Part shown: positions 12,583-28,984 of the stretch, in pieces
Numbering within the stretch: position 1 is the first letter of the stretch
Layout: each line of letters begins with the position of its first letter
Source of the DNA: a virus
Virus record (IMG/VR): IMGVR_UViG_3300044712_001102
Location: 1 to 36,878 of that record
DNA length: 36,878 bases
Strand: one strand, 5' to 3'
Position numbers and translations under genes: made by a program
Notes under the pieces: generated by a model
Database searches by the model: none
What the model was told of the DNA's origin: nothing
The model's input: the letters and a program-made list of their open reading frames with translations, nothing else

Positions 12583-12666
12583 TATGCTGATTTAACAGAT
12601 GAAAATGATAAAATCACCGAATTTTGACAACAACCCTGTAACGCAACCGTAACACATCACTTCTTG

Positions 12667-12708
12667 AAACCGCAGCAAATAGCGATAATAATAGAAAGGC
12701 TGCGGTTT
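12667..12708. repeat. Perfect 10-bp inverted repeat with AT-rich loop
   Basis: AAACCGCAGC at 12667-12676 pairs perfectly with GCTGCGGTTT at 12699-12708 around a 22-base AT-rich loop. It lies between the two divergent promoters. It could be an operator, or a terminator-like barrier isolating them; there is no adjacent T run long enough to call a terminator. Confidence 0.6.
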
Positions 12709-12732: not shown

Positions 12733-12769
12733 TATGAACTTCATGAACTTTAAAAACTTGTGGTATAAT
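12733..12769 (+). promoter_or_regulatory. Extended -10 promoter overlapped by TGAACTT iterons
   Basis: TGGTATAAT at 12761-12769 is a perfect extended -10 element. There is no good -35. Instead TATGAACTT (12733-12741) and CATGAACTT (12742-12750) lie head to tail over the -35 position. The same motif is clustered in the candidate origin at 21866-22239. An activator or repressor that also binds the origin probably controls this promoter. The start point is expected at about 12776, exactly where the structured RNA begins. Confidence 0.7.
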
Positions 12770-12775
12770 CAACTT

Positions 12776-12948
12776 GAGCATCGCAACTCAACTCTGGACG
12801 GCGGCATTTTTATGCCACCTGGTTTACAATTAAATAACAACACCACGGATCGCAAATCCGGGTGTCTCGTTGTAGGTAAAGGCCTGCAACGGCATAACTA
12901 CCGCCTGTCCGAGTTGCGACGCTCCGCAGGTTGGCCGGTGCCGTTGCA
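12776..12948 (+). ncRNA. Candidate structured RNA with closing helix and pseudoknot
   Basis: The predicted transcript starts with GAGCATCGCAACTC (12776-12789), which pairs 13 of 14 with GAGTTGCGACGCTC (12911-12924). Inside are GGAC/GTCC plus GGC/GCC, a GGCAT-TTTT-ATGCC hairpin, and a long arm in which TTTAC/GTAAA, ACAAC/GTTGT, CACC/GGTG and CGGAT/ATCCG all pair (about 12822-12880). The unpaired strand at 12885-12894 (TGCAACGGCA) is exactly complementary to TGCCGTTGCA at 12939-12948 outside the closing helix, giving a 10-bp pseudoknot or a switch partner. It precedes the 88-residue gene, so it may be a leader or an independent RNA. It matches no class I can name. Confidence 0.65.
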
Positions 12949-12993
12949 AGCTTTTGCGTTATCTATCGGTAAATCAAAATTAGGAGCGTCACA

Positions 12994-13260
12994 ATGAAAG
13001 CAGATAAAATCGTAGAAGGCAGTGTGATCCTGAAGCTCAGTCCCAGCGACTGCGCTATTCTGTCTCACGCGTGCGCGACCGCCGCTGAGAACATGCTGGA
13101 CGAATCTCAAGACAACCAGCGCACCCAGATGCAGCAACTTTCGACCCTCTTCCATCTGGCAGGGGGCCTCGCCGCCGCCAGCGAACGCATCAATTTGCAT
13201 GATTTCGCGGAATTCGATCAGGCCTTCCGGGACATCGACCCCCGGGGAAAGGTGCAGTAA
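12994..13260 (+). CDS. Small protein of unknown function downstream of the structured RNA
   Basis: An 88-residue protein with AGGAG nine bases ahead of the ATG. The sequence begins with a short strand (GSVILKLSPSDCAILS) and continues as mainly helical segments (ACATAAENMLDESQ, MQQLSTLFHLAGGLAAASER), ending in a charged tail. There is no membrane segment and no clear DNA-binding motif. It is the first protein gene after the RNA and is coupled to the next gene (stop, one base, ATG). It may be the target or partner of the RNA. The family was not recognised. Confidence 0.6.
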   Translation: MKADKIVEGSVILKLSPSDCAILSHACATAAENMLDESQDNQRTQMQQLSTLFHLAGGLAAASERINLHDFAEFDQAFRDIDPRGKVQ

Positions 13261-13261
13261 G

Positions 13262-13717
13262 ATGAACCCCGACAATGAAAAACCCGTCCTGCAGTCGGTG
13301 CTGGCCCTGGTTGATGTCCAATCCGGGGCACAATCGTGGAAATGCAACTATCACCTCTCTACGCTGTCCACCGTCGTGAAAGATCTTTTTGGCCTGGAAA
13401 TTCGTCCCCTGGATCTCCGGGATCTCATCACCAAACGACTGGCCATCTGGGTCCATCGCACTACCAGCGGCTATGAAATCGTTCCCCATGCGGAGCGCCT
13501 GGAATCCCTCCGGGAACAATACCACATCGATCCTCAGGAACAGGGACAACTCACCGAAAAACTGATCTCCATCTGGACCAGGCGCGCCCATGAGCGCGTA
13601 GAACTCAGCGAAATCATCACGCAGGCCGTGATGGAACATCGTCGGGCCGGTAAAGCGCTCCCGACCCTCGAATCTCTCGAAGATATGATCACCCGCGTCT
13701 ACACCTGTCAAATTTAA
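13262..13717 (+). CDS. Protein of unknown function, second gene of the RNA-led operon
   Basis: A 151-residue protein starting one base after the previous stop, with AAAGG upstream. The frame continues further upstream but only inside the preceding gene. Residues 1-75 look like an alpha/beta domain (VLALVDVQSGAQSWKCNYHL, then LDLRDLITKRLAIWVHRTTS). The C-terminal half is helical (HERVELSEIITQAVMEHRRA). One could imagine a winged-helix protein (LSTLSTVVKDLFGLEI, then LRDLITKRLA, then a strand with GYEIVPHAE), but this is weak. It ends just before a strong terminator, so the operon is only RNA plus two genes. Confidence 0.6.
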   Translation: MNPDNEKPVLQSVLALVDVQSGAQSWKCNYHLSTLSTVVKDLFGLEIRPLDLRDLITKRLAIWVHRTTSGYEIVPHAERLESLREQYHIDPQEQGQLTEKLISIWTRRAHERVELSEIITQAVMEHRRAGKALPTLESLEDMITRVYTCQI

Positions 13718-13740: not shown

Positions 13741-13772
13741 GGCCCCACCCGTCCCCCGGGTGGGGCCTTTTT
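13741..13772 (+). terminator. Intrinsic terminator of the plus-strand operon
   Basis: GGCCCCACCC and GGGTGGGGCC form a perfect 10-bp stem with a seven-base loop, followed by TTTTTC. It lies 23 bases after the stop of the 151-residue gene. Confidence 0.92.
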
Positions 13773-15086: not shown

Positions 15087-15132
15087 AAAAAAACCTGTAT
15101 TCATTCATCGATGAACGATGAACGAATACAGG
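15087..15132 (-). terminator. Intrinsic terminator after the 67-residue gene
   Basis: CCTGTATTC (15094-15102) and its complement GAATACAGG (15124-15132) continue through a TTCATCG/CGATGAA inner stem. On the minus strand the stem is followed by TTTTTTT. It separates the 15178-15381 gene from the promoter at 15032-15059. Confidence 0.9.
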
Positions 15133-15177
15133 TAGTAACGCCGCTATATGTCTAGTACCTGGTGTACCTGGGCAAAA

Positions 15178-28736: not shown

Positions 28737-28781
28737 TTCACATCCGTGAGGTCGTAGGTTCGAGCCCTATCTCGCCCACCA
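28737..28781 (+). other. attP core resembling the 3' half of tRNA-Val(CAC)
   Basis: From TTCACAT (anticodon loop with CAC) the sequence continues as CCGTG (anticodon stem 3' strand), AGGTC (variable loop), GTAGG-TTCGAGC-CCTAT (a full T-arm, one G-U), CTCGCCC (acceptor 3' strand), discriminator A and CCA. The 5' half of a tRNA is absent: the five bases before the loop (CATTC) do not pair with CCGTG. Integrases of tRNA-using phages restore the tRNA 3' end this way. The integrase gene follows at 28985. Confidence 0.85.
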
Positions 28782-28984
28782 GCCCCTTTTATCAGTACGG
28801 ACTCTCTCTCTACCATCCCGTGAGGCCGTGCTAAAAAAAGAGCGCTTTTTAGTTCTCCTCACGGATTCCGACTAAAAAAAACTTCCCCGAGTTGTGATAA
28901 TTGACCCATTATCACCCCCTTAAACACTGATAATCTATCACATTATCACAACTCGGGAGGTTAATTTTAATCGGAGGAACCACG
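28782..28984. promoter_or_regulatory. Repeat-rich att/integrase control region
   Basis: Gene-free region between attP and the integrase gene. CCGTGAGG (28818-28825) and CCTCACGG (28857-28864) form a hairpin; the same CCGTGAGG is inside the tRNA part of attP at 28744-28751. A perfect 16-base inverted repeat, CCCGAGTTGTGATAAT (28886-28901) and ATTATCACAACTCGGG (28942-28957), surrounds two more partial GTGATAAT motifs (for example ATTATCAC at 28909). These look like arm-type sites for integrase or an excisionase, or an mRNA hairpin shielding the integrase ribosome site (TCGGAGG). Confidence 0.65.

Follow-up and report, generated by a model that had tools for sequence, protein, structure and literature searches.

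The window, by which we mean the whole 36.9-kb virus record analysed here, encodes a terminase, a primase, a ParA protein, an HTH repressor-like protein, a tyrosine integrase, and a tape-measure protein, and between 0.9 and 27.8 kb nearly all of the genes lie on the minus strand. A plus-strand unit at 12.76-13.77 kb breaks this pattern; it consists of an extended -10 element, a structured leader, ORFs of 88 and 151 aa, and a GC-rich terminator (Table 1). The presence of an integrase gene together with a tRNA-3'-end attachment-like sequence (28738-28785) indicates that the phage is temperate, and the plus-strand unit therefore looks like independently expressed cargo. The attachment-like sequence is a tRNA 3' end that reads tRNA-Val-like, terminates in CTCGCCCACCA, and lies just 5' of the integrase gene; it is a probable attP core. 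It is matched at 96-98% over 47-48 bp in two otherwise different IMG/VR phages (L027 and L028), hinting at a common host group. Immediately 5' of the integrase ORF, a long inverted repeat (AACTTCCCCGAGTTGTGATAAT...ATTATCACAACTCGGGAGGTT, 28880-28962) may represent arm-type sites or an operator.

Table 1. Features of the plus-strand unit, with positions in the window
Feature	Position	Strand	Basis and remarks
Extended -10, TGGTATAAT	12761-12769	+	Sequence; predicted +1 at about 12776; same position relative to P1 in both homologues
P1, 5' strand, GAGCATCGCAACTC	12776-12789	+	At the expected RNA 5' end; first nucleotides resemble the Shine-Dalgarno (SD) strand
P2, 5' strand, GGACGGCGG	12796-12804	+	Fold; partner 12901-12910; equivalents in L005 and L126
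P3, 5' strand	12810-12816	+	Fold; partner 12891-12897; 3' strand overlaps the end of arm A
P4 hairpin	12840-12865	+	Fold; insertion in the window copy only, absent from L005 and L126
P5 hairpin	12869-12890 (12869-12877/12882-12890)	+	Fold; conserved GUUGUrG..AAAG motif; incompatible with pairing of arms A and B
Arm A of the second conserved helix	12877-12894	+	Pseudoknot arm of the sequence-only reading, extended; 7 of 18 pairs doubly changed
P1, 3' strand (anti-SD strand)	12911-12925	+	12918-12925 complementary to 12983-12990
Arm B of the second conserved helix	12939-12956	+	Downstream GCGTT common to all three copies
SD strand, GGAGCGTCACAA	12983-12994	+	Complementary to the P1 3' strand; 5 of 12 pairs doubly changed
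88-aa ORF	12994-13260	+	pI 4.9; directly under the putative switch; resembles the 61-aa ORF of copy a (L005)
151-aa ORF	13262-13717	+	Second ORF of the operon; orphan
Operon terminator	13741-13772	+	Sequence; GC-rich hairpin and T-run

A reading of the letters without database searches (the sequence-only reading) had described an extended -10, an expected start of transcription on the first base of a 14-bp closing helix, several helices nested within it, and a 10-bp pairing reaching outside it. The -10 element is present; because no good -35 was scored with it, the transcription start at about 12776 is predicted and not mapped. The closing helix P1, formed by GAGCATCGCAACTC and GAGTTGCGACGCTC (12911-12924), has the boundaries given to it, but 13 of its 14 positions are paired, the exception being an A.C mismatch (12780/12920). 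The computed fold of the leader contains P2, P3, P4, and P5 as nested helices, and a U-run at 12807-12811, found in all three copies described below, comes after the 5' strand of P2. The pairing of TGCAACGGCA (12885-12894) with TGCCGTTGCA (12939-12948) is exact and extends, with one mismatch, to 12877-12894/12939-12956, the helix of arms A and B.

The folding energy of positions 12776-12993 was -87.5 kcal/mol compared with a mean of -60.9 kcal/mol (sd 4.3) for shuffled sequences, corresponding to a z-score of -6.2, and none of 200 shuffles equalled it. In a z-score scan of both strands of the window, leader windows ranked third and fourth among 980. The SD of the 88-aa ORF lies in the octamer GGAGCGTC (12983-12990), whose complement is found at 12918-12925 within the 3' strand of P1; full P1 and pairing of the SD are therefore mutually exclusive. 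The likely output of the switch, sequestration of the SD by the P1 3' strand, was absent from the sequence-only reading. Because the 10-bp helix shares bases with the 3' strands of P3 and P5, it is compatible with P1 and P2 but not with P5 or with a complete P3. The whole leader folds best with the outer end of P1 open and the SD hidden, and a fold with full P1 and free SD is 3.5 kcal/mol costlier, a gap as small as a switch would need.

Two homologous copies were found in a distantly related IMG/VR phage, IMGVR_UViG_3300018080_000446 (G002), which contains the stretches L005 (copy a) and L126 (copy b). A covariance model made from the window sequence alone (R1) and searched against about 1.4 Mb blindly matched copy a (L005:5851-5968, 27.1 bits, E 0.0022) and, after the whole G002 record had been fetched, copy b (L126:8690-8801(-), 32.1 bits, E 1.7e-4); the other R1 matches were the antisense strand of the window itself and matches with E above 2. 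A descriptor without fixed sequence asked for an SD 8-mer, upstream of it the exact complement, and still further upstream a near-complement of this second strand; from both strands of 1.56 Mb it retrieved only the window, L005, and L126 at zero to two mismatches, and the next best match had three mismatches. A covariance model built from the three copies (R2) revealed no further copies in the sequence searched. When the second helix was searched for as a DNA pattern, 96 IMG/VR stretches matched; leaving aside the window and the L005 record, one alone had so much as the two free bases complementary, and none of these other stretches rose above chance in R1 or R2. Protein searches yielded no relatives in IMG/VR for the 88-aa ORF, the 151-aa ORF, the leader frame, or the 907-aa primase of the window, and none in GTDB genomes for the 88-aa ORF and the terminase. 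The terminase, with 25 distant relatives, was the only gene tried that gave relatives in IMG/VR. A search with an alignment of the two small proteins likewise brought nothing, and for those leaders and small ORFs that were tried, phage and plasmid records gave no match at either the DNA or the protein level.

The copies share one anatomy in different letters. In the window, P1 is GAGCATCGCAACTC/GAGTTGCGACGCTC, the SD and start codon are GGAGCGTCACA-ATG, and the arms are TAAAGGCCTGCAACGGCA/TGCCGTTGCAAGCTTTTG; the corresponding elements are GAGATGGGCATCTC/GAGATGCCCATCTC, GGAGATGGGCAA-ATG, and CAAAGGCCAGCAATGGC/GCCATTGCTGGCTTTTG in copy a, and GATTCTGGCGAATC/GATTCGCCAGAATC, GGATTCTGGCAA-ATG, and CAAAGAGCCACAGTGGA/TCCACTGTGGCTCTTTG in copy b. 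P1 starts 7-8 nt past the -10 in every copy, and both homologues have a -35 as well (TTGACC-18-TATAAT and TTGACT-17-TAAAAT, each with TG). The second helix is 16-18 bp long in the three copies, in all of which the U-run follows P2 and the UUGUrG..AAAG motif builds P5 with part of arm A. In the window, copy a, and copy b, the leader is 218, 175, and 179 nt long, respectively, and the spacers are nearly constant, with 14, 13, and 12 nt from P1 to arm B and 16, 16, and 14 nt from arm A to P1. Each copy forms a separate cassette of promoter, leader, and small ORF in which the SD of the small ORF is the competing strand, and the pairing strands differ between both copies of G002.

Compensatory change was assessed in a strand alignment of the three copies (A9), two of which come from one phage. 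The strands were aligned separately, as a first-pass MAFFT alignment of whole leaders misplaced P1. The alignment was assembled by hand from strands known to pair, so the percentages from it are partly a product of its construction, and the independent evidence lies in the blind matches and in the slide controls. Paired cells made up 97.6% in P1, 96.3% in arm A:arm B, 91.7% in SD:anti-SD, and 87.5% in P5 (21 of 24 cells in register). A search for compensatory changes in both helices by covariance model had been suggested by the sequence-only reading, and the outcome was strong, with double compensatory changes in 8 of the 14 pairs of P1 and 7 of the 18 pairs of arm A:arm B; such changes were also found in 5 of the 12 SD:anti-SD pairs and 2 of the 8 pairs of P5. 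None of the shuffles matched the P1 and arm A:arm B values, one in 500 matched the SD and P5 values, and sliding the strands by one to three columns lowered pairing to 33-49%. When the window and copy a were compared alone, doubly changed pairs numbered four in P1, two in arm A:arm B, and four in the SD helix. It follows that both members of two mutually exclusive sets are conserved, P1 and SD:anti-SD in one and P5 and arm A:arm B in the other. The leader structure is almost certainly functional, and, judged by comparison of the sequences, this is a real, conserved phage leader RNA outside Rfam. The sequence-only reading had left a choice between a pseudoknot and a two-state switch ahead of two unknown genes, and the covariation in two blindly found homologues bears out a structured RNA of this kind.

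A local alignment of the 88-aa ORF with the 61-aa ORF of copy a was significant (shuffle p 0.0002), and BLASTP of the pair gave no alignment. In both phages, these ORFs occupy corresponding positions, with the ParA/PAPS-reductase genes on one side and the terminase genes on the other. The 70-aa ORF under copy b lies just 5' of the tape-measure gene and showed no significant similarity to the other small ORFs (p 0.15-0.2). The products of the small ORFs are small and acidic in all three copies (pI 4.4-4.9). No family match was obtained for them or for the 151-aa ORF of the window, and AlphaFold models of the 88-aa and 151-aa products, made without relatives, were of low confidence (pLDDT ~55). 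A hairpin 3' of the 61-aa ORF (L005 6228-6262) ends in GCTTTTGCGTTATT, nearly identical to the window tail GCTTTTGCGTTATC after arm B. Directly 3' of the 70-aa ORF lies a long near-perfect hairpin, AATAAAGAGCAC...GTGCTCTTTATT (L126 8345-8405, minus strand), and because of this position the copy b cassette seems to be closed by its own terminator within the tail gene cluster.

In translational riboswitches as a general class, a closing helix P1 competes with sequestration of the SD, and the anti-SD is released from P1. The leader resembles them in its conserved interior motifs and possible pseudoknot, and, as in a riboswitch, mutually exclusive structures appear to govern access to the SD, on comparative and energetic evidence. 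It differs from them in having no Rfam riboswitch match and in occurring, so far, in phage cargo cassettes only. The three copies matched no Rfam family at gathering level, riboswitch aptamer families included, in keeping with the view of the sequence-only reading that the RNA fits no recognised class, and 4227 Rfam models run against the window at E<=10 returned only two chance-level hits to unrelated families. Nor did scans of neighbouring ORFs with Pfam, PHROGs, and PADLOC find a reverse transcriptase or cas gene, which agrees with the earlier statement that no retron reverse transcriptase or CRISPR genes are nearby.

Three phage RNAs are the closest analogues of the leader. Like the C4 antisense RNA of P1/P7 (RF01695), the leader is a structured RNA at the start of an operon, and it contains strands that can pair with the SD region of a phage ORF downstream (12918-12925 with 12983-12990, and likewise in the other two copies), and c4 RNA pairs near the ant RBS (PMC12197685). 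Unlike in C4, the strand that serves as anti-SD belongs to a 14-bp closing helix, in which it is the 3' strand and pairs with the RNA 5' end, and icd/ant cannot be recognised among the downstream genes; the C4 model had no match in the window at E<=10 and none above gathering in the window, L005, or L126. P4 CI RNA has two complementary sequences, seqA upstream and seqC downstream, and pairs with both (PMC4825925). By logic alone, the leader is likened to this seqA/seqB/seqC arrangement, in that one strand, the P1 3' strand, is complementary to both an upstream copy, the P1 5' strand, and a downstream copy, the SD strand, within the same leader; in P4, however, the outcome is premature termination of transcription, whereas strand C of the window is a Shine-Dalgarno sequence, pointing to translation. 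The short IsrK RNA of the Salmonella Gifsy-1 prophage binds its own read-through mRNA and frees the RBS of a 45-aa ORF that precedes an antirepressor gene (PMC4825925). The IsrK/orf45/anrP locus shares with the window a structured temperate-phage 5' leader, whose alternative folds sequester a small ORF's RBS, and a second gene after that ORF (PMC4825925). IsrK has a terminator-defined short form and acts in trans. In each copy of the present leader one promoter site is predicted, and a terminator after arm B is doubtful, copy b having no free U-run. Unlike in IsrK, the RBS strand of the window copies the 5' end of the RNA itself, and there is no Rfam match; IsrK homology did not emerge among the 4227 Rfam models, which presumably include IsrK. 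Because the C4 model and all of Rfam were unmatched and trans action is hypothetical, we file the leader as working like C4, P4 CI, and IsrK and not as a member of any of them; in our analysis it would best be called a new family among conformational leader RNAs.

The resemblance to these RNAs raises the alternative of a trans-acting immunity or activator RNA, in which a short RNA from about 12776 to about 12956, made from the same promoter, would pair with the leader or SD of a longer transcript and so repress or activate the small ORF, and barcode-like strands would set phage-specific immunity. Phages use such logic (P4 CI, IsrK, c4), one window strand pairs with an upstream and a downstream copy, the small ORF precedes a second ORF, and the two copies of G002 differ in their pairing strands, as expected if cross-talk is to be absent. 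However, the default for complementary strands that lie in one transcript is to pair in cis, neither a terminator nor a processing site was established past arm B, where copy b has no unpaired U-run, no Rfam model, C4 included, rose above chance even at E 10, and the 151-aa ORF has no recognisable antirepressor domain, so that we regard this explanation as unlikely. Much less likely still is a transcription attenuator with the arm A:arm B helix and the following CUUUUGCGUU as intrinsic terminator and P3/P5 as antiterminator. At about -44 to -45 kcal/mol, the hairpin of arms A and B is highly stable, a terminator-like site was scored at L005 5980-5993, and the window tail GCTTTTGCGTTAT recurs 3' of a GC-rich hairpin after the 61-aa gene of L005; yet the U residues are mostly paired with the AAA of arm A, the stem of copy b has no U-run after it (GGCGTTCTAGTT), a loop of >40 nt would be needed, and the covarying SD strand would be left unexplained. 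The second helix as an intrinsic terminator was once favoured and then dropped, copy b being without a free U-run.

The leader might also be protein-coding, since an open frame with a possible RBS spans it entirely and, at 12734-12997, overlaps the ATG of the 88-aa ORF (ATGA), as in translational coupling; the helices would then be by-products. This seems extremely improbable, because the frame (12707/12734-12997) has no codon-position bias, its GC contents of 0.48/0.41/0.51 being flat against about 0.64/0.38/0.67 in the two downstream genes, and because its ATG lies 5' of the predicted transcription start. Moreover, the homologues differ in length by 43 and 4 nt, neither a multiple of three, searches for a protein resembling that of the frame returned none, and the pairing strands covary with compensatory changes that fit pairing. 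Conservation as a coding frame, which the sequence-only reading had named as grounds for abandoning an RNA, was not seen.

Positions 12776-12993 are probably the 5' leader of a small phage-cargo mRNA that belongs to a new family of cis-acting translational switches. There is good reason to believe that the leader controls translation via the SD, and it is likely to act mainly in cis. Because the SD strand nearly copies the first nucleotides of the RNA, the 5' end and the SD are expected to compete by strand exchange. When P1 is formed, the anti-SD would be held by the RNA 5' end, the SD would be free, and the 88-aa ORF would be translated; when P1 is open, the anti-SD would cover the SD and translation would be off, the assignment of ON and OFF being the presumed one. 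The helix of arms A and B could either brace P1 as a pseudoknot or replace P3/P5 and so open P1. The summed energies for coexistence of P1 with arm A:arm B, before any pseudoknot penalty, were -82.5, -80.8, and -86.8 kcal/mol in the window, copy a, and copy b, respectively, and the nested optima were -87.5, -73.2, and -79.7 kcal/mol; by these calculations arm A:arm B may coexist with P1 as a pseudoknot, and the near-constant spacers favour such coexistence. The minimum-energy nested fold of copy b corresponds to the other state, in which arm A:arm B takes the place of P3/P5; with the arm A:arm B hairpin formed, P1 open, and the SD unpaired with the P1 3' strand, it counts against the proposed switch. 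A presumed trigger, be it a protein, a metabolite, an RNA, or the state of infection, would shift the balance between the states, and it is rather doubtful that the leader senses a specific ligand. More tentatively, these leaders could constitute a new class of phage RNA whose 5' end mimics its RBS, so that one captured strand serves both the head of the RNA and the SD of the gene, and which is reused within a genome with interchangeable barcodes, a pseudoknot core sensing a ligand, a protein, or the RNA of a sister phage and deciding whether small cargo is expressed.

To our knowledge, few structured phage leaders are understood, and most of these are from enterobacterial models (C4, CI, IsrK, lambda cIII). 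Support for the present leader comes from compensatory changes among three copies, carried by two uncultivated phages; it occurs twice in one genome with different pairing strands, and its cassettes resemble independently expressed cargo. Because copies in distant phages keep their base pairs while their letters have largely changed, it appears, from sequence comparison, to be a real and previously undescribed kind of RNA switch. Competition of the 5' end and the SD for one strand is a concrete, testable mechanism, the three-strand descriptor is a ready tool to search for more copies, and the cassettes provide an entry point to small orphan phage proteins with seemingly controlled expression.

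Two further elements lie outside the unit. A strong hairpin at 15090-15135 (CCTGTATTCATTCATC/GATGAACGATGAACGAATACAGG), located where the folding z-score of the window is lowest (-8), is probably a terminator. Another promoter-like site (TTGAAA-17-AATAAT) is present at 12664-12708; a perfect 10-bp inverted repeat (AAACCGCAGC/GCTGCGGTTT) encloses its -10 and could be an operator 5' of the leader's own promoter.
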